A stretch of DNA of 38,734 nt from an uncultured SAR86 cluster bacterium (GTDB taxonomy: Bacteria; Pseudomonadota; Gammaproteobacteria; Magnimaribacterales; D2472). Below the pieces are notes generated by a model, which saw only the letters and a list, made by a program, of their open reading frames with translations, did no database searches and was not told where the DNA came from. Shown piece after piece: positions 9,799 through 17,716 of this stretch. Each line of letters opens with the position of its first letter. Within the stretch, counting starts at the first letter, position 1. Both the position numbers and the translations under genes were made by a program. The stretch is taken from NCBI GenBank assembly GCA_902538705.1, contig CACBGD010000010.1, positions 1 to 38,734 of the forward strand. The letters run 5' to 3'.

Positions 9799-11064
9799 TT
9801 AAAGTATTTCCTCTACTTCATTCAAAGCAGAAGTTATTTTTTCCCCATTCCTAAAGATTATTTCAACCTTATTATGATCCGTAAAATTTTTACCGAAAAC
9901 GATCGATAAAGGAATCCCAATTAGCTCAGAATCTTTAATCTTTTTTCCAAAACCGTCTTCTCGATCATCTAAAATTACTTCAAACCCTTTTTGAGTGAGG
10001 TCTTGATAAAGTTTTCTGGACGATGCTTCAATATTTTTATCTTTTTCAGCACCAATTGTAATTATATTTAAATTAAAGGGAGAAATAGATTCTGGCCAAA
10101 TAATTCCTTTATCATCAAAATTTTGCTCTATTGCAGCGGCAACAATCCTTGAGATTCCAATTCCATAACATCCCATATGCATGTTTTTAGCTGAGCCTGA
10201 GTCATCTAAAACAGTTGCATTCATATTTTCGCTATAGAGCCTACCCAATTGGAATATATGTCCCACTTCAATTCCTTTTGTAATTTCAAGCAACCCATTT
10301 CCATCTGGTGATTTTTGACCTACTAATGATTTTGAATCTTGACCATCTTCAAGTAAAAGCTCTGCATTGACTGCGTAATCAGATTTATCAGATACTGCAA
10401 GAGTATCTTCACCATTATTCGCAAGGACATGAAATTCTTCAGATTTATCTCCACCAATCGCACCAGAGTCCGCTTTTACAATTTTGAAATCTAAACCTAA
10501 TCTTTCAAAGATTTTTGAGTAGGTGTTTCTCATTATTTGATATGTCTTTTCTAAGCTTGCTTCAGAAAGATGAAAGCTATAAGAATCCTTCATTAAGAAC
10601 TCTCGACTTCTCATTACTCCATATCTTGGTCTTATTTCGTCTCTAAATTTAGTTTGTATTTGATAAATATTCAAAGGAAGCTCTTTATAACTTTTTACAT
10701 TATTTTTGATTAGGTCAGTTATAACTTCTTCATGAGTAGGACCTAAGCAAAAATCTCTATCATGACGATCTTTAAATCTAAGCAATTCAGGACCAAACTT
10801 GTCCCATCTCTTTGATTCACTCCATAAATCTTTTGGTTGCACCATAGGCATCAACACTTCATGCGCTCCAGCATTATTCATTTCTTCTCTTACAATACTT
10901 TCAACTTTATTTAAGACCCTCAAACCAAGTGGAAGCCATGTGTAAATTCCTGAGGCATTTTTTCTTATCATGCCAGACTTAAGCATGAGGCTATTACTTA
11001 TAACTTGAGCATCCTCAGAAGCAGTATCTCTGAGTGTAGGAATGAAATAATTTGACCAAAACAT
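9799..11064 (-). CDS. proS: Prolyl-tRNA synthetase, short form lacking the editing insertion
   Basis: This class II synthetase charges tRNA-Pro. Core motifs are intact: [21 protein letters not shown] (motif 1 region), [21 protein letters not shown] (motif 2), and [18 protein letters not shown] followed by [13 protein letters not shown] (motif 3 and anticodon domain start), plus [19 protein letters not shown]. The length is 421 residues, against 572 in E. coli. The chain runs from [25 protein letters not shown] almost directly to the second half of the catalytic domain, so the roughly 180-residue YbaK-like INS editing domain is absent. Short ProRS of this kind is known from many alphaproteobacteria. 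It starts divergently from fmdB across 63 bases. Confidence 0.96.
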
Positions 11065-11127: not shown

Positions 11128-11409
11128 ATGCCCATTTATGAATACAAATGCTCAAATTGCGGGCATCAATTTGAAAAAATTCAGAAATTTTCAGATGATC
11201 CTCTTAAAAAATGTCCTAAGTGTGACAAAAATGCTTTAAATAAGTTAATATCCAGCCCATCATTTAGGCTTAAGGGAAGTGGTTGGTATGAAACTGACTT
11301 TAAAACAGGCAATAAAAAGAACATACTAAACAAAGAAAAAGATGCAAAAGATCCTAAAAAGTCAAAAAAAAAGGATAAGGGTAGTACAAAGGTAAACAAT
11401 GAGAACTGA
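11128..11409 (+). CDS. FmdB-type zinc ribbon protein
   Basis: This is a small zinc-ribbon protein of the FmdB (putative regulatory protein) family. It starts [20 protein letters not shown] and has a second CPKC pair, giving a four-cysteine zinc site within the first ~35 residues. The family tail [17 protein letters not shown] follows, then a lysine-rich, probably disordered C-terminus (about 65-93). Its function is not established; the family name comes from the methylotroph fmdB locus. It overlaps aspS by 11 nt, a neighbour relation I recall for many proteobacteria, so translational coupling to aspS is likely. A TATAAT at 11102-11107 could serve as its -10, with no convincing -35. Confidence 0.85.
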
Positions 11410-13162
11410 ATATTGTGGAAACATAACTAAAGAACATCTTGGAAAAGATGTATCAATATGTGGTTGGGTCCATCGAAGGCGTGATCATGGTGGAGTTATT
11501 TTCCTTGATATAAGAGATCTTGAGGGTGTCTGTCAGGCAGTTATCGATCCATCCAATGATGAGGCATTTTCCCTTGCAGATAAATGTAGAAGTGAATTTG
11601 TTATTAAGATTAAAGGAAATGTTCGTGAGCGACCTGAGGGCACTATAAACTCTAAAATGAAGACTGGAGAGGTTGAAATAGAGGTAAGCGAAATAGAGTT
11701 ATTAAATTCAGCTGCAACTCCTGCATTTCCGCTTGATGACTATCAAGATGTTAATGAGGATGTCCGATTAAAAAATAGAATTTTAGATTTAAGAAGACCT
11801 GAAATGAATAACAGGATTCTGAAAAGATCTAAGATTGTATCTAAAATAAGAAATTTCTTAGAAGAAAGAAACTTTAATGAAATAGAAACTCCAATACTCA
11901 CAAGAGCTACTCCTGAAGGAGCAAGGGATTATATTTTGCCAAGCCGCATCCATCCTGGAAGTTTTTACGCACTTCCTCAGTCTCCTCAGCTTTTCAAGCA
12001 AATGCTCATGATGGGTGGAATGGATAGGTACTATCAGGTTGCAAGGTGTTTTAGGGATGAGGATTTAAGAGCAGACAGGCAGCCAGAATTTACTCAGATT
12101 GATATAGAAGCATCTTTTGTTGAGGAGAGAGATATCATTGAGCTTGGTTCAAGCTTACTTAAGCTTCTGCTTAAAGATTTTGCAAATCATAATTTAGATG
12201 ATATTGATGAACTTGACTATGCGCATGCTATTAATAAATACGGCTCCGATAAACCTGATCTAAGAATACCTTTGGAGCTGTTAGAGATTTCTGATGAAGC
12301 TAAAAAAGAGGAATTTAAAGTTTTCTCTGATCCAGCAAAAAATGATGAATCAAGAGTTGTTGCTTTGAAAGTAGGTGGAGGAAATAAACTTACAAGATCT
12401 CAAATAGATGAATATACAAATTTTGTTGGTAAATTAGGAGCAAAAGGACTTGCTTATATAAAAATTAATGATGTTTCTGACATTGAAAATGGACTTCAAT
12501 CTCCAATTCTTAAGTTCCTTTCGAAAGACTTTATAACCGCACTTTTTAGAAAGTTAAATCCTGTAAATGATGACTTAATTTTCTTTGGTGCAGGCCCTTC
12601 AGAAATAGTTAACTTAAGTATGAGCTCTTTAATAAAAAGACTGGGAAAAGATTTAGATTTATATCAAAAAGATTGGGCACCCTGTTGGATAATTAATTTT
12701 CCTATGTTTGAAACCGATGCAGACAATCTAAAGGCACTTCATCATCCATTCACTAGACCTAAAGATGATTTAGAAAACTTTAAAAAGGATCCATCTAAGG
12801 CTCAAGCCTATGCTTATGACTTAGTTCTTAATGGTTATGAAATCGGTGGAGGTTCTCTAAGGGTTCATGACTCTAAAATGCAATCAGCTATCTTTGATGC
12901 TCTCAACATTTCAAATGAGGAAGCATGTCTTAAGTTTGGATTCTTACTTGATGCTCTTAAGACTGGATGTCCACCTCATGGTGGTATAGCTCTTGGTCTT
13001 GATAGGATTGTCATGTTACTTACTCAAACTGAAAATATAAGAGATGTAATAGCATTCCCGAAAACTCAAAGCGCATCATGTCTTCTTACAGATGCACCTA
13101 ATATTGTTGATGAGTCTCAACTTAATGAACTTCATATAAAAAAAGATCTTGATGAGGAATAA
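11399..13162 (+). CDS. aspS: Aspartyl-tRNA synthetase
   Basis: This class II synthetase charges tRNA-Asp. The 587-residue length equals the bacterial type (about 590), with the N-terminal OB-fold anticodon domain ([19 protein letters not shown]), motif 1 region ([20 protein letters not shown]), motif 2 ([18 protein letters not shown]), the bacterial GAD insertion (about 285-420) and motif 3 ([13 protein letters not shown]). The end [16 protein letters not shown] is characteristic. It starts inside fmdB and is followed after three bases by yebC, the gammaproteobacterial aspS-yebC order. Whether it also charges tRNA-Asn cannot be read from the sequence. Confidence 0.98.
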
Positions 13163-13165
13163 ATA

Positions 13166-13906
13166 ATGGCTGGTCATTCCAAATGGGCAAATATAAAACA
13201 TAGAAAAGCCAGACAAGATGCAAAAAGAGGGAAGATATATACCAAACTTATCCGTGAACTTACAGTTGCTGCAAAATCAGGGGGTGGCGATCCAAATGAT
13301 AATCCTAGATTAAGATTGGCTCTTGATAAAGCAAATTCTGAAAATATGCCCAAAGACACTATTAATAGGGCTATAGAGCGGGGAACTGGTGCAGGAGAAG
13401 CTGGAAACCTCGAAGAAATCACATATGAGGGATATGGTCCTGGAGGAGTTGCTGTTTTAGTTGAAGCAATGACTGATAACCGAAATAGAACTGTCGCAGA
13501 TGTAAGACATGCATTTACAAAGTTTGGAGGCAATCTTGGAACAGATGGTTCTGTAAGCTACCTATTTAATAAAATTGGCCTTGTGATCATTGAAAAATAT
13601 CAAGATGAAGATACTGTAATGGAAACTTTGTTAGATTTTGATGGTGAAGATTTAGAAGATACCGGGGATAATTTTATAGCGACTGTGCCATTTCAGAATC
13701 TTTCTTCATTTGTAGAGAAGCTTAAGGATCAAGGAATAAAAGTTGAAAATGCAGAGGTTACAATGAAAGCAGATACAGCCGTGCCTGTTGATCAAGAAAT
13801 GGGAGAAAAGGTTTTAAGGATTCTTGATTTTTTAGATGAAGTTGACGACGTACAAGAAGTTCATTCAAATGCTGAATTTCCTGTTGACTTTAAACCTGCA
13901 GAGTAA
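13166..13906 (+). CDS. yebC: YebC/PmpR family protein (TACO1-like)
   Basis: YebC-family proteins were annotated as transcription regulators (PmpR) and are more recently linked to translation of proline-rich stretches, like mitochondrial TACO1. The 246-residue protein has the invariant start MAGHSKWANIKHRKARQDAKRGKIYTK, the PRLRLALDKANSENMPKDTINRAIERG segment, YEGYGPGGVAVLVE, TDNRNRT, and the FGGNLGTDGSVSYLF turn, all in family order and spacing. It lies between aspS and the gene at 13909, where ruvC would be expected. Confidence 0.97.
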   Translation: MAGHSKWANIKHRKARQDAKRGKIYTKLIRELTVAAKSGGGDPNDNPRLRLALDKANSENMPKDTINRAIERGTGAGEAGNLEEITYEGYGPGGVAVLVEAMTDNRNRTVADVRHAFTKFGGNLGTDGSVSYLFNKIGLVIIEKYQDEDTVMETLLDFDGEDLEDTGDNFIATVPFQNLSSFVEKLKDQGIKVENAEVTMKADTAVPVDQEMGEKVLRILDFLDEVDDVQEVHSNAEFPVDFKPAE

Positions 13907-13908
13907 TA

Positions 13909-14334
13909 ATGCCAGTTAATTCAAGAGCAAAGGGAGCTAATTTTGAAAGAGAAATTGGAAATCTCCTTGTACAAGATTTAGGATTAAAGAACCCTGTAAA
14001 AAGAATCCTTGAACAAACTAGAACGAAAGAATTACCAGATCTTATGTTGGGAAGATGGTGCATTGAATGCAAACGATATGGTGACGGCTCTGAACCAAGT
14101 GATGATTGGTGGAATCAGGTGCTTGCGGCATCAAGTAATGACAATCAAATACCAGCTTTGGTTTATAAATTTAATAGGAAACCATTAAAAGTTAGGATTC
14201 TGGCATCATGCATTAATAATGAGATTCAAAATAGAGATGTAACTGTTGATCTCTCATGGAAAGATTTCATTTCAATCATTAAAGAATTATTTTTAGAAGA
14301 TATTGACTTACATGAGCAAAGTACACAGTTGTAG
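13909..14334 (+). CDS. Phage-type PD-(D/E)XK nuclease, candidate Holliday-junction resolvase
   Basis: This 141-residue basic protein resembles small phage and prophage PD-(D/E)XK proteins often annotated as Holliday-junction resolvases. The N-terminus NSRAKGANFEREIGNLL supplies the first acidic residues (E13, E15); LPDLML gives D44 and WCIECKR gives E53-x-K55, the classic metal-binding triad; WWNQVLAAS has a Q70 in the usual following helix; and the late strand PALVYKFNRKP matches the family. It starts two bases after yebC and overlaps ybgC by 23 nt, so it is embedded in the operon. In Pseudomonas and many relatives ruvC-ruvA-ruvB occupies exactly this slot. It has no sequence likeness to RuvC (RNase H fold). 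Nuclease fold is confident; resolvase role is inferred from position. Confidence 0.78.
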   Translation: MPVNSRAKGANFEREIGNLLVQDLGLKNPVKRILEQTRTKELPDLMLGRWCIECKRYGDGSEPSDDWWNQVLAASSNDNQIPALVYKFNRKPLKVRILASCINNEIQNRDVTVDLSWKDFISIIKELFLEDIDLHEQSTQL

Positions 14335-14719
14335 AGATCTCGAAATCTTTGTTTACGTTGAAGATACTGATTTTCAAGGAATTGTTTACCACGCAAATTA
14401 TTTGAAATATTTCGAAAGGGCACGATCAAGTTGTCTCAGGGATCTTGATATTTCACAGAGTGAGGAAATCAAGGCAGGAAAAGTTTTTATCATAAAGACT
14501 ATAAATATTGAGTTCATGAGGCCTGCAGAAATCGAAGATAATTTGATTATTTCCTCAGAAATTGAGTACTTATCTAATGCCCGATTATTCTTTCATCAAC
14601 AAATCAAAAGAAATGCAAGTGATGATATTATATGTAAAGGAAAAGTTGAGGTGTGTTTTTATGATCAGAAAAAAAATAAACCAGTTGCTTTCCCTAAAAA
14701 ATTATTAAAAAATCTTTAA
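14312..14719 (+). CDS. ybgC: YbgC-family acyl-CoA thioesterase
   Basis: This hotdog-fold thioesterase of the Tol-Pal operon hydrolyses acyl-CoA and, in E. coli, is tied to phospholipid enzymes at the inner membrane. Family features are the strand VYVEDTDFQGIVYHANYLKYFERAR, with the catalytic aspartate in EDTDFQG and the HANY signature, then the INIEFMRPAEIEDNLII strand pair. The frame is open from a TTG at 14303, but ATG 14312 gives 135 residues and a typical start. It overlaps the upstream nuclease by 23 nt and leads into tolQ after two bases. Confidence 0.92.
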   Translation: MSKVHSCRDLEIFVYVEDTDFQGIVYHANYLKYFERARSSCLRDLDISQSEEIKAGKVFIIKTINIEFMRPAEIEDNLIISSEIEYLSNARLFFHQQIKRNASDDIICKGKVEVCFYDQKKNKPVAFPKKLLKNL

Positions 14720-14721
14720 AA

Positions 14722-15405
14722 ATGAATGAAGTATCAGCTATAGAATTATTTTTGCAAGCAGGAATAGTTGTTAAGTCAGTAATGATTATTTTAATTTTAG
14801 CTTCAATTATTTCATGGATAATTATTTTTGAAAGATACATTTTCTTCAGGAAAGCTAATGAAAACAGATTTATTTTTGAGGATAAATTTTGGTCAGGAAC
14901 TGATCTTAATGAACTTTATTCTGAGCTTGATGGATTAGATTTTGATTTGATTGGATCAACTAGCGTTTTTAAAAATTCTTTCAAGGAATTCAAAAGAATT
15001 TCAAACAGAAGTAAGCTTACTGATATGGATCTCGAAGGTCTTAATAGATCTATGAGAGTATCCATTGCAAGAGACGAAGAAGATATGAATAAAAATTTAT
15101 CGATACTTGCAAATATTGGCTCAGTAAGTCCATATATTGGGTTATTTGGTACAGTTTGGGGAATTATGGGCTCTTTTCAGGGTCTCTCAGATGCAACACA
15201 GGCTACTATTAATGCTGTTGCACCTGGAATATCAGAGGCTTTAATTGCAACAGCTATGGGTCTCTTTGCGGCTATACCAGCCGTGATAGCTTTTAATAGA
15301 TTTACATCAAAAGCAGATTCATATTTGCAGACAACTACAATTTTTGCTGAAGAACTTGCAAGCATCTTCTACAGAGAATCAGTTAAGCAAAAAGATGATC
15401 TATAG
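14722..15405 (+). CDS. tolQ: TolQ, proton-channel subunit of Tol-Pal
   Basis: TolQ, an ExbB/MotA-type inner-membrane protein, forms with TolR the proton-driven motor that energises TolA for outer-membrane constriction at division. The 227-residue chain has a first membrane segment (about 15-36), a cytoplasmic loop, and the conserved region ANIGSVSPYIGLFGTVWGIMGSF leading to two further membrane segments (about 130-158 and 168-195), with AISEAL-like PGISEALIATAMGLFAAIPAV. Length matches E. coli (230). It follows ybgC directly and overlaps tolR by 11 nt. Confidence 0.96.
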   Translation: MNEVSAIELFLQAGIVVKSVMIILILASIISWIIIFERYIFFRKANENRFIFEDKFWSGTDLNELYSELDGLDFDLIGSTSVFKNSFKEFKRISNRSKLTDMDLEGLNRSMRVSIARDEEDMNKNLSILANIGSVSPYIGLFGTVWGIMGSFQGLSDATQATINAVAPGISEALIATAMGLFAAIPAVIAFNRFTSKADSYLQTTTIFAEELASIFYRESVKQKDDL

Positions 15406-15817
15406 ACTAGGTCAAAGAAAAAAACTTCACGCAGAAATAAATGTGGTCCCATACATCGATGTGATGCTTGTTCTTCTTATAATCTTCATGGTTCTATCAC
15501 CATTATTGATCCAGGGGATTGATGTTAATCTTCCGAAGACAGATACAACTAAGATGACAATACAGAATGAGCCTTTAGTAGTATCAATTGATCAAAACGG
15601 TAACTATTTTCTTAACCTTGGTGAAGAGGAGATTGCTATTTCGCTTGATGAGCTCAAAGATAAGGCATTTATTATTTTTGATGCCAATCCAGAAATTGAG
15701 GTTGTCTTTAAAGGAGATGGATCAGTAGATTTCCAAAGTGTTGCAGCCGCAATGGCGGCAATTCAAAGTGTTGGCATTGAAAAAATAGGAATTGTAACTT
15801 CTGGATATGATGACTAG
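15395..15817 (+). CDS. tolR: TolR, motor subunit of Tol-Pal
   Basis: TolR is an ExbD-type protein with one membrane helix carrying the protonatable aspartate. The signature INVVPYIDVMLVLLIIFMV (about residues 14-32) holds that aspartate, followed by a periplasmic domain with LPKTDT and a C-terminal GSVDFQSVAAAMAAIQSVGIEKIGIVT helix-strand. The frame is open from a TTG at 15344, but ATG 15395 gives 140 residues, close to E. coli's 142, and places the N-terminus normally. It overlaps tolQ by 11 nt and tolA by 11 nt. Confidence 0.96.
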   Translation: MIYRLGQRKKLHAEINVVPYIDVMLVLLIIFMVLSPLLIQGIDVNLPKTDTTKMTIQNEPLVVSIDQNGNYFLNLGEEEIAISLDELKDKAFIIFDANPEIEVVFKGDGSVDFQSVAAAMAAIQSVGIEKIGIVTSGYDD

Positions 15818-16430
15818 TTCAAATATACTTATTGCATCCTTCTATTCATTCTTAATTCATGCAGGACTATTTTTAGGATTCTTTGGATATTTTGAACAAA
15901 CTGAAAAACCAAACAAAATACTAAGTTCGCCTTTGAGTGTAAAAATGCTTATCGAAGATAGTACTCAAAACACGCAAAAAAAGAACTATGTAAAGATGCA
16001 GCCAGATATATATAAGGAGCCTTATTTTGAAACAGCAGAAATCATTCAGGAAGTAGTGAAAACAAAATCTTATGAGATGTTTGACTCTGGAATAGATTCT
16101 TTGTTAAGTGAAGAAATAGCTTTCGAAGATACTTATGACGAAGATATTTTAAGATTCTATAATGCAATAAAGCTTAAGATTGAGTTAGCATGGATAAAGC
16201 CAAAAAATATTCAGTCTAATCTTTCATGTGATCTAGGAATTACAACTAATCCCCAAGGTAGAGTAGTTGGTTTAAAGCTCTTAAAAAGCAGTGGAAATAT
16301 AAGATTTGATAATTCTGCTATGCAAGCAGTTAGACGAGTCGAAACTTTTAATATCTTTAAAGAAATGCAAAGAGAAGTTTATGAAGATACTTTTAAAAAT
16401 ATGATCTTTAGATTTAATCCAACAAAATGA
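15807..16430 (+). CDS. tolA: TolA-like energy transducer, strongly shortened
   Basis: TolA links the TolQR motor to TolB and Pal across the periplasm. This 207-residue protein has the N-terminal membrane helix with a TolA/TonB-style S-x3-H motif (S14, H18 in SFLIHAG) and a C-terminal TonB-like domain (about 112-207: FYNAIKLKIELAWIKP, CDLGITTNPQGRVVGLKLLKSSG, FDNSAMQAVRR). The linker between them is only about 80 residues, acidic and mixed in composition. E. coli TolA has 421 residues with a long Ala/Lys-rich helix of well over 200. Two adjacent ATGs (15807, 15810) could both start it. It overlaps tolR by 11 nt and tolB by 4 nt. Identity rests on domain order and locus, not close similarity. 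Confidence 0.88.
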   Translation: MMTSSNILIASFYSFLIHAGLFLGFFGYFEQTEKPNKILSSPLSVKMLIEDSTQNTQKKNYVKMQPDIYKEPYFETAEIIQEVVKTKSYEMFDSGIDSLLSEEIAFEDTYDEDILRFYNAIKLKIELAWIKPKNIQSNLSCDLGITTNPQGRVVGLKLLKSSGNIRFDNSAMQAVRRVETFNIFKEMQREVYEDTFKNMIFRFNPTK

Positions 16431-17716
16431 GATTTTTAAAGTTATTTATAATAATTCCTCTTTTCCTGAATGCCGAGCTTGTAATAGAAATTACTAAAGG
16501 TTCTGATAATCCTTATCGAATAGCATTAATTCCTTTCCAGGGAGAATTTAGTTTTGCAAAAGAGGCTAACGAAATTGTAAAGAATGATCTTTTAAGGACA
16601 GGAGAATTTTATATTTTTGATGAAAAGTCTCTAATAGCATATCCACCAAGTGAAGATGATATCAATTATAGTGATTGGAGACTTATAAATGCTGATTATC
16701 TTCTTCTTACATCAGTCATTGAAAGTAATTCGGGTATTGAAGCGAGATATGAAATATTTGATGTAAGAAGAAAATCAAAAATTAGAAGTTCTAAGGTTTA
16801 TGGGGTTACTAATAATGTGAGACAGCTATCACATTATGTTAGCGATGGAATTTATGAGGCTATTACAGGAATTAAGGGTATTGCGTCAACGAAAATACTA
16901 TATGTAAGTCAGTCCAATAATCTTGATAGTATATATAAGCTATATGTAGCTGATGCAGATGGGGCTAATGAGCAGCTCTTAGTAAAAAGTCCTGAGCCAA
17001 TAATTTCTCCAGTCTGGTCACCTGATTCAAAGAAAGTAGCCTATGTTTCTTTTGAAACTGGTATTGCGAATGTATATATACAAGATATTTTTACTGGAGA
17101 CAGAGAATCAATTATTAAGAAAAGATGTTTGACATGTACTTCTAACGAGCAAATTAGCTCTCCCTCTTGGTCGCCAGATGGAAAGTATCTTTCATTAACT
17201 TTATATCAAGATGGAAATGCAGAGATTTATATCTATAACCTCCAAAAAAGAAACCTAACTAGATTAACAAATCATTACTCTATAGATACAGAATCTAAAT
17301 GGTCACCTGATGGAAGGAAATTGATGTTCACATCAGGAAGGTCTGGTTCGCCACAATTGTATGAGCTAGATTTAAGAAAGCTCAATAAAAAGCCAAAACG
17401 CCTAACATTTGAAGGAAACTATAATGCAAGGGGTTCTTATCTACCGGGTGGAGAGGGTATTGTTTTTGTTCACAGATCCTCGGATCAATTTCAAATAGCA
17501 ATAAAATATTTTGAAGATAATTTTATTATCCCTTTAACCGATGCAAAAATGGATGAATCTCCTAGTGTTTCTCCAAATGGTAATGTGATAATCTATGCAA
17601 TAAGTGAACAAAATAATGACATTTTAGCAGGGGTAACCCTGAGCGGAGCCAAGTTTCGTTTACCTTCTGCAAAAGGTCAGGTTAGAGAGCCAGCTTGGTC
17701 AGGTTTTTTAAAATAA
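16427..17716 (+). CDS. tolB: TolB, periplasmic beta-propeller protein
   Basis: TolB is the periplasmic partner of Pal and of TolA. The 429-residue chain begins with a signal peptide (MRFLKLFIIIPLFLNA, likely cut after A16), an N-terminal domain with YRIALIPFQG and an FYIFDEKSL segment, then a six-bladed propeller. WD-like blades are visible: SPVWSPDSKKVAYVSF, SPSWSPDGKYLSLTL, ESKWSPDGRKLMFTSGRSG, and SPSVSPNGNVIIYA near the end. Length matches E. coli (430). It overlaps tolA (ATGA) and precedes pal by 12 bases. Confidence 0.97.
   Translation: MRFLKLFIIIPLFLNAELVIEITKGSDNPYRIALIPFQGEFSFAKEANEIVKNDLLRTGEFYIFDEKSLIAYPPSEDDINYSDWRLINADYLLLTSVIESNSGIEARYEIFDVRRKSKIRSSKVYGVTNNVRQLSHYVSDGIYEAITGIKGIASTKILYVSQSNNLDSIYKLYVADADGANEQLLVKSPEPIISPVWSPDSKKVAYVSFETGIANVYIQDIFTGDRESIIKKRCLTCTSNEQISSPSWSPDGKYLSLTLYQDGNAEIYIYNLQKRNLTRLTNHYSIDTESKWSPDGRKLMFTSGRSGSPQLYELDLRKLNKKPKRLTFEGNYNARGSYLPGGEGIVFVHRSSDQFQIAIKYFEDNFIIPLTDAKMDESPSVSPNGNVIIYAISEQNNDILAGVTLSGAKFRLPSAKGQVREPAWSGFLK

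Follow-up and report, generated by a model that had tools for sequence, protein, structure and literature searches.

The DNA analysed here, called the window below, is a 38,734-nucleotide stretch from an uncultured member of the free-living SAR86 cluster, whose genome assembly comprises 998 kb on 35 contigs and is 80% complete. Between yebC and ybgC, where relatives carry ruvC, ruvA and ruvB (the ruvCAB slot), it encodes a 141-residue protein, P0001 (Table 1). The gene begins two nucleotides after the yebC stop codon, and its 3' end overlaps the start of ybgC by 23 nucleotides. The open reading frame and the Pfam assignments of its neighbours bear out the initial annotation, which had read the gene from the letters alone as a PD-(D/E)XK nuclease lying between these two genes. 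P0001 matches the Pfam family PDDEXK_15 (PF24608; E = 8.5e-10, 39.2 bits against a curated cut-off of 27), a family of phage endonucleases that is itself labelled putative. The residues that had been singled out as catalytic were correctly named, and in an alignment of 48 SAR86 and viral proteins E13, D44, E53, K55 and Q70 are invariant while E15 is not. As had also been remarked, the base composition of the gene (GC 0.34, GC3 0.25) resembles that of the neighbouring genes.

Table 1. Features of the window at and around the nuclease gene.
Feature	Position	Strand	Remark
aspS	11399..13162	+	upstream anchor of the slot; Pfam class II tRNA synthetase
yebC	13166..13906	+	directly upstream of the nuclease gene; Pfam TACO1/YebC
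Hjc-like PD-(D/E)XK nuclease (P0001), 141 aa	13909..14334	+	in the ruvCAB slot; ATG start; PF24608 PDDEXK_15
E13 codon	13945..13947	+	motif I, invariant
D44 codon	14038..14040	+	motif II, invariant
E53-C54-K55 codons	14065..14073	+	motif III, invariant
Q70 codon	14116..14118	+	invariant
ybgC	14312..14719	+	ATG at 14312; Pfam 4HBT thioesterase
tolQ	14722..15405	+	downstream anchor of the slot; Pfam TolQ/ExbB
tolR	15395..15817	+	Pfam TolR/ExbD
presumed tolA	15807..16430	+	named from position
presumed tolB	16427..17716	+	named from position

Elsewhere in the window, a 421-residue open reading frame (9799-11064, minus strand) presumably resembles a prolyl-tRNA synthetase, short in comparison with that of E. 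coli.

RuvC was present in 260 of 274 gammaproteobacterial genomes sampled, three of the 274 being SAR86. From the upper part of the RuvC match list, 20 loci were retrieved and searched for selected genes only: yebC preceded ruvC-ruvA in 18, and ybgC or tolQ followed in 16. The order yebC-ruvC-ruvA-ruvB-ybgC/tolQ, which the initial annotation had given for Pseudomonas and many relatives, is the one that most related gammaproteobacteria sampled display. In the same vein, STRING is reported to rank YebC, YbgC and the Tol proteins high among the partners of RuvABC (PMC3403352, available in part).

A profile of the SAR86 nuclease matched seven of the 274 genomes: the three SAR86 genomes, three that also have RuvC (G109, G201 and G316), and one without RuvC (G138), which belongs to the family f42 described below. 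Eleven RuvC-less genomes, G138 included, lie outside SAR86 in this sample. Five of them (G104, G193, G309, G336 and G368) have a RuvC-bearing congener in the sample, making assembly gaps likely in those cases. yebC was found in only four of the eleven (G138, G172, G229 and G309); in G229 and G309 it runs to the contig end, and in G172 it is followed by unrelated sequence and then by a masked stretch. The G172 locus (L239, from a 1.7 Mb genome) also has an open reading frame between aspS and yebC, which we take to be carbonic-anhydrase-like.

Within SAR86 the nuclease is matched in 95 of 101 genomes, that of the window included (four families, 20 genera), so the reading frame did not arise by chance. 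Identity to P0001 in the relatives ranges from 43 to 93%; the G026 match is partial, and those in G040, G096 and G099 contain internal stop codons. None of the six genomes without a match is a counter-example, because their yebC either sits at a contig end (G005 and G029) or was not matched at all (the other four). Of the 50 loci checked, 49, drawn from all four families, have the gene directly 3' of yebC. The exceptional locus (L058) holds a second copy in a prophage-like region of G021, the only genome with two copies; all others with a match have one. Among loci from named genomes, of which the best 80 of 181 were considered, yebC, ybgC and tolQ accompany the nuclease in 80 of 80. Even where no tol gene lies downstream (L045, from G066), the nuclease still follows yebC. 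Within the genus of the window, dN/dS is about 0.10 for the nuclease, compared with 0.06 for yebC, 0.11 for ybgC and 0.02 for tolQ (seven comparisons per gene, six of them usable for the nuclease). The gene is retained throughout the order and is under purifying selection.

Five loci of family f4 (L042, L045, L047, L049 and L059) show a local variation, with no ybgC match after the nuclease gene; in four of them the next gene is tolQ, and L045 is the one in which no tol gene was matched.

Profile searches of the same 101 genomes, 40 of which are at least 90% complete, found no RuvC (PF02075, 0/101), no RuvA_N match above the cut-off (0/101) and no full-length RuvB (TIGR00635, 0/101; best matches below 30 bits against a cut-off of 299), and the E. 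coli control was recovered in every ruv search. A ruvC gene elsewhere in the genome had been named in advance as an observation that would refute displacement, and none was found in the window's own genome or in 100 relatives. The more guarded suggestion that the RuvAB motor was lost as well also stands, with ruvA and full-length ruvB below the curated cut-offs in every genome.

Could RuvABC nonetheless be present and overlooked, through assembly gaps or extreme divergence, so that nothing was replaced? The window's genome is only 80% complete, RuvB_N (PF05496) exceeds its low cut-off in 94 of the 101 genomes, and one genome (G075) yields a sub-threshold RuvA_N match (E = 8e-4). The RuvB_N matches were set aside as candidates for genuine RuvB, because the full-length model failed and because the two leading matches in the window's own genome are ClpX and DnaX (the only RuvB_N matches whose identity was determined). 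Moreover, ruvC, ruvA and ruvB of G278 matched nothing when searched against the SAR86 slot loci. Given the uniform absence across 101 genomes, so many of them nearly complete, and the recovered control, we attach next to no credence to an overlooked RuvABC.

RecG, the remaining junction enzyme tested, is unevenly distributed. All 101 SAR86 genomes match its model (TIGR00643) at E ≤ 0.001, of which 36 exceed the cut-off and 25 fall just below it with E below 1e-170; counting RecG as present at E below 1e-170 gives 61 of 101. It was not found by this measure in any of the 36 genomes of genera g1 (that of the window), g2, g4, g5 and g6 (within G000-G060), 15 of which are at least 90% complete. 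Elsewhere in the order it is present in 61 of 65 genomes, and in the other four it is broken by stops (G040), cut at a contig end (G095) or not found (G052 and G092). The best TIGR00643 match in 24 of the 36 RecG-less genomes is an open reading frame of at least 900 residues. The best match was checked in two genomes, G000 (that of the window) and the single-contig G010, and rejected as RecG since in both it is Mfd. Of RuvA, RuvB, RuvC and RecG, the four junction enzymes searched for, none is left in the window's genus.

An AlphaFold2 model of P0001 was obtained with a mean pLDDT of 87.8 and a pTM of 0.85. Each of the top 15 PDB matches returned by Foldseek is an archaeal Hjc-type resolvase; the lowest E value is 2e-4, and the TM-scores are only moderate at 0.39-0.54 by query length. 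Structural alignment with VIA-align gave Z = 10.2 to 1gef (rmsd 2.7 over 102 residues) and Z = 10.0 to 2wcw and 1ob8, the last of which we take to be Hje. Best Z values of 7 to 8 are common with this program, and values near 10 are not far above them. Compared with the archaeal enzymes (PF01870; 1gef, 2wcw and 1ob8), which give the best fold match at Z = 6.9-10.2 over about 100 residues, P0001 is only 15-24% identical, and it occupies a ruv slot in a bacterial host. Sequence searches detected no such kinship directly: P0001 matched neither the Pfam (PF01870, E ≤ 10) nor the NCBIfam (NF040854, E ≤ 0.1) model of Hjc, nor the Pfam models of RuvC (PF02075), RusA (PF05866) or RecU (PF03838), each at E ≤ 10, and a search of PDB sequences with P0001 alone or with a 48-row profile returned no resolvase.

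Restriction and defence systems often use PD-(D/E)XK nucleases, and the lower part of the fold list contains chains of the SPARDA nuclease (Z = 6.2-8.0), RecU (5.8-6.1), and endonucleases of restriction systems and viruses (about 5). The protein might thus be a nuclease of the restriction, anti-phage or Vsr-like kind, inserted by chance into a housekeeping operon. Yet it is resolvases that head the list, the slot contains no methyltransferase or partner gene, and the nuclease is found order-wide, essentially as a single copy and under purifying selection. PADLOC returned no match, on which ground a restriction or defence role was dropped; we regard it as highly improbable. A predicted fold in a nuclease family of clearly different function had been the second announced refuter, and with archaeal Hjc-type enzymes nearest and restriction enzymes lower this was not met.

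The nuclease is linked to phages, as the description of it as a phage-type enzyme had implied. A tblastn search found relatives in 98 phage records (28-34% identity in the 40 shown), IMG/VR gave at least 547 relatives, and phrog_244 matches P0001, the f42 nuclease, the G021 prophage copy and all three of the viral homologs examined. The phage endonucleases of phrog_244 and PF24608 are thus direct family matches to both chromosomal nucleases; they differ in that the members known here are phage genes and do not sit at a fixed chromosomal locus. Around the viral relatives (140 neighbouring open reading frames from 39 loci, without a control set), the commonest families include primase/helicase, DnaB helicase, exonuclease VIII, terminase small subunit, an endonuclease and 2OG-Fe(II) oxygenase, each accounting for five or six of the 140. 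Nucleases on two IMG/VR contigs (L140, 4001-4420; L141, 4001-4417) group with the SAR86 chromosomal proteins and are 51-57% identical to P0001. Since these contigs, which carry tail-fibre, holin, endolysin or virion genes, encode SAR86-grouping nucleases, they suggest that SAR86 and its phages exchange genes.

The second copy in G021 (L058 4017-4433; G021:C4) is phage-like, with a RecE-like exonuclease and a primase/helicase as neighbours, and it clusters in the tree with viral sequences, apart from the chromosomal SAR86 gene. Of the phrog_244 label, 'RusA-like Holliday junction resolvase', the opening term seems mistaken for the proteins considered here: they match PDDEXK_15, the Pfam RusA model is unmatched, and P0001 is predicted to have an Hjc-like fold.

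The RuvC-less genome G138 (1.1 Mb, 98% complete) belongs to a different order, and its locus reads aspS-nudB-yebC-[104-aa PD-(D/E)XK]-ybgC-tolQ-tolR, where nudB is our presumed assignment. From this order 20 genomes of three families were sampled. In family f42, RuvC is found in 0 of 12 genomes and an Hjc-like nuclease of the family's own in nine; all eight genomes of its two sister families have RuvC, and none of the eight has the nuclease. The f42 nuclease follows yebC in nine of nine loci, with ybgC-tolQ next in eight (in L243 neither was detected within the 1.5 kb available), and the sister loci read yebC-ruvC-ruvA in 8 of 8, with ruvB in view in seven. Three f42 genomes without the nuclease remain unexplained (G376, 79% complete; G379, 93%; G380, 73%). 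A like swap has therefore taken place in a second lineage, where RuvC alone was searched for genome-wide.

The f42 nuclease provides the bridge by sequence to known resolvases. It matches PF24608 (37.2 bits), stays below the cut-offs of the Hjc models of Pfam (PF01870, 19.9 bits against 21.1) and NCBIfam (NF040854, 16.6 against 70), and finds the phage enzyme Hjc_15-6 (PDB 7bgs) at E = 7.9e-6 and four further Hjc-type PDB entries at 0.01-0.04. Comparing the SAR86-viral and f42 alignments with hhalign gave a probability of 96.8% (E = 2.7e-10) and placed E13, D44, E53 and K55 of P0001 on E13, D43, E58 and K60 of the f42 protein. In turn, E13 and D43 of the f42 protein fall on E10 and D40 of Hjc_15-6, while its E58/K60 pair falls on the E-x-K of 2eo0. 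Through these two linked alignments the catalytic E...D...E-x-K of P0001 is in register with that of Hjc, and its acidic residues and lysine are arranged as in the archaeal enzymes. Because P0001 and its profile found no resolvase among PDB sequences, the link to Hjc rests on the predicted fold and on the f42 nuclease.

The two chromosomal nucleases do not descend from a single capture, as far as their sequences can tell. In a 110-row tree, 28 SAR86 proteins and two viral rows group together (SH-aLRT 100), and the f42 proteins are placed among other viral proteins, relatives of the f42 type on viral contigs reaching 49% identity. A single SAR86 plus f42 clade, even allowing the two viral rows inside, was rejected (AU p = 8.4e-5). 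The tree has only 139 columns and its long branches were flagged; with that qualification, the SAR86 and f42 nucleases have separate origins and filled the slot independently.

Hjc_15-6, an archaeal-type Holliday-junction resolvase from Thermus phage Tth15-6, is among the closest known systems. The parts available of its description report that it cleaves X-shaped DNA in vitro, that, given Mg2+, it cuts Holliday-junction oligomers irrespective of ATP while sparing linear lambda DNA, and that E10, D40, E53 and K55 are its proposed catalytic residues (PMC8805305). It resembles the SAR86 nuclease in being a small PD-(D/E)XK enzyme with the motif E - D - E-x-K, and it matches by sequence the f42 nuclease, which aligns with the SAR86 family. 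Unlike the SAR86 gene it is phage-encoded and not a fixed chromosomal gene, its sequence does not directly match that of the SAR86 nuclease, and its motif reads SD/EVK (PMC8805305, available in part) against PD/ECK in SAR86.

Taken together, the results are best explained if Hjc-like resolvases captured from phages replaced RuvABC in place, in two lineages in parallel; cleavage of junctions is inferred. The proposal of the initial annotation, that RuvC and perhaps its RuvAB motor were displaced in place by a phage-type nuclease, is accordingly supported, with neither of its refuters met and cleavage of four-way junctions still unproven. We propose that an ancestor of the SAR86 order may have lost ruvC, ruvA and ruvB from an aspS-yebC-[ruvCAB]-ybgC-tol cluster and that the nuclease would have taken over there and been kept since. 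The newcomer would be a phage-derived, structure-selective endonuclease of the archaeal (Hjc-like) type, the direction of transfer from phage to bacterium being an inference. By analogy with Hjc it may act as a homodimer with one metal-dependent active site per subunit (E13, D44 and E53-x-K55), although both dimerisation and metal dependence are inferred. It would need no AAA+ motor to introduce paired nicks across a four-way junction; its independence of RuvAB is likewise an inference. Where RecG survives, it may branch-migrate junctions for the nuclease, much as RecG has been proposed to partner RusA (PMC3403352, available in part). In the window's clade, where neither motor was found, junctions would have to rely on spontaneous migration or on a different helicase.

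The enzyme might instead be a branched-DNA nuclease with another main job, such as the processing of flaps or stalled forks, that joined the locus after RuvABC was lost and left junctions to be dissolved in some other way or handled by a different resolvase. Greater promiscuity has been described for phage resolvases than for bacterial ones (PMC3864405, available in part). For this protein only fold and context are established, without a biochemical or genetic result; RusA, RecU and other resolvases (Endo VII and the like) lay outside the searches of the SAR86 genomes; and RecG persists in 61 of the 101. Set against this, the same kind of nuclease filled the slot twice independently, with RuvC gone each time, and in the window's genus RecG too was not found, leaving none of RuvA, RuvB, RuvC and RecG. 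We therefore consider a different main job unlikely, and hold with good confidence that a phage-derived Hjc-like endonuclease took over junction resolution in the ruvCAB slot, the cleavage itself being inferred. The fuller proposition, that two lineages independently captured phage Hjc-like resolvases at ruvCAB and dropped RuvAB, and that the 141-residue nuclease is the sole dedicated junction system where RecG has gone, is somewhat favoured by the evidence but distinctly less secure.

A replacement of RuvC is not without parallel. In Firmicutes the resolvase RecU stands in for RuvC, but there RuvAB is retained (PMC3403352, available in part). RecU is also a weaker fold match to P0001 (Z about 6), and it is encoded away from the ruvAB genes with which it co-occurs (PMC3403352, same parts), whereas SAR86 lacks RuvAB and its newcomer sits in the ruv slot. 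The same source, as far as available, gives RuvA and RuvB as missing in under 2% of sequenced bacteria, mostly parasites. A closed SAR86 genome has been reported to lack 28 of 280 markers, several of them for DNA recombination and repair (PMC11582366, available in part), so the bare loss of ruv genes in SAR86 may already be in print. Neither that loss nor its replacement was named in the literature searched, mostly by title and abstract and with few subscription journals covered.

Looking forward, the nuclease is a small, easily assayed protein, and a SAR86 isolate exists in culture (PMC11582366, available in part). A whole order of abundant ocean bacteria is without detectable RuvA, RuvB and RuvC, and a sub-clade is also without RecG, which raises the question of whether recombination is viable without a known branch-migration motor. 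Because the positional swap happened twice, it constitutes a natural experiment in non-orthologous replacement. Two further questions are whether junction resolution has its genetic seat at the ruv locus and why YebC stays adjacent. If the fuller proposition above is true, branch migration of the RuvAB type would be dispensable in one of the ocean's most abundant free-living bacteria.
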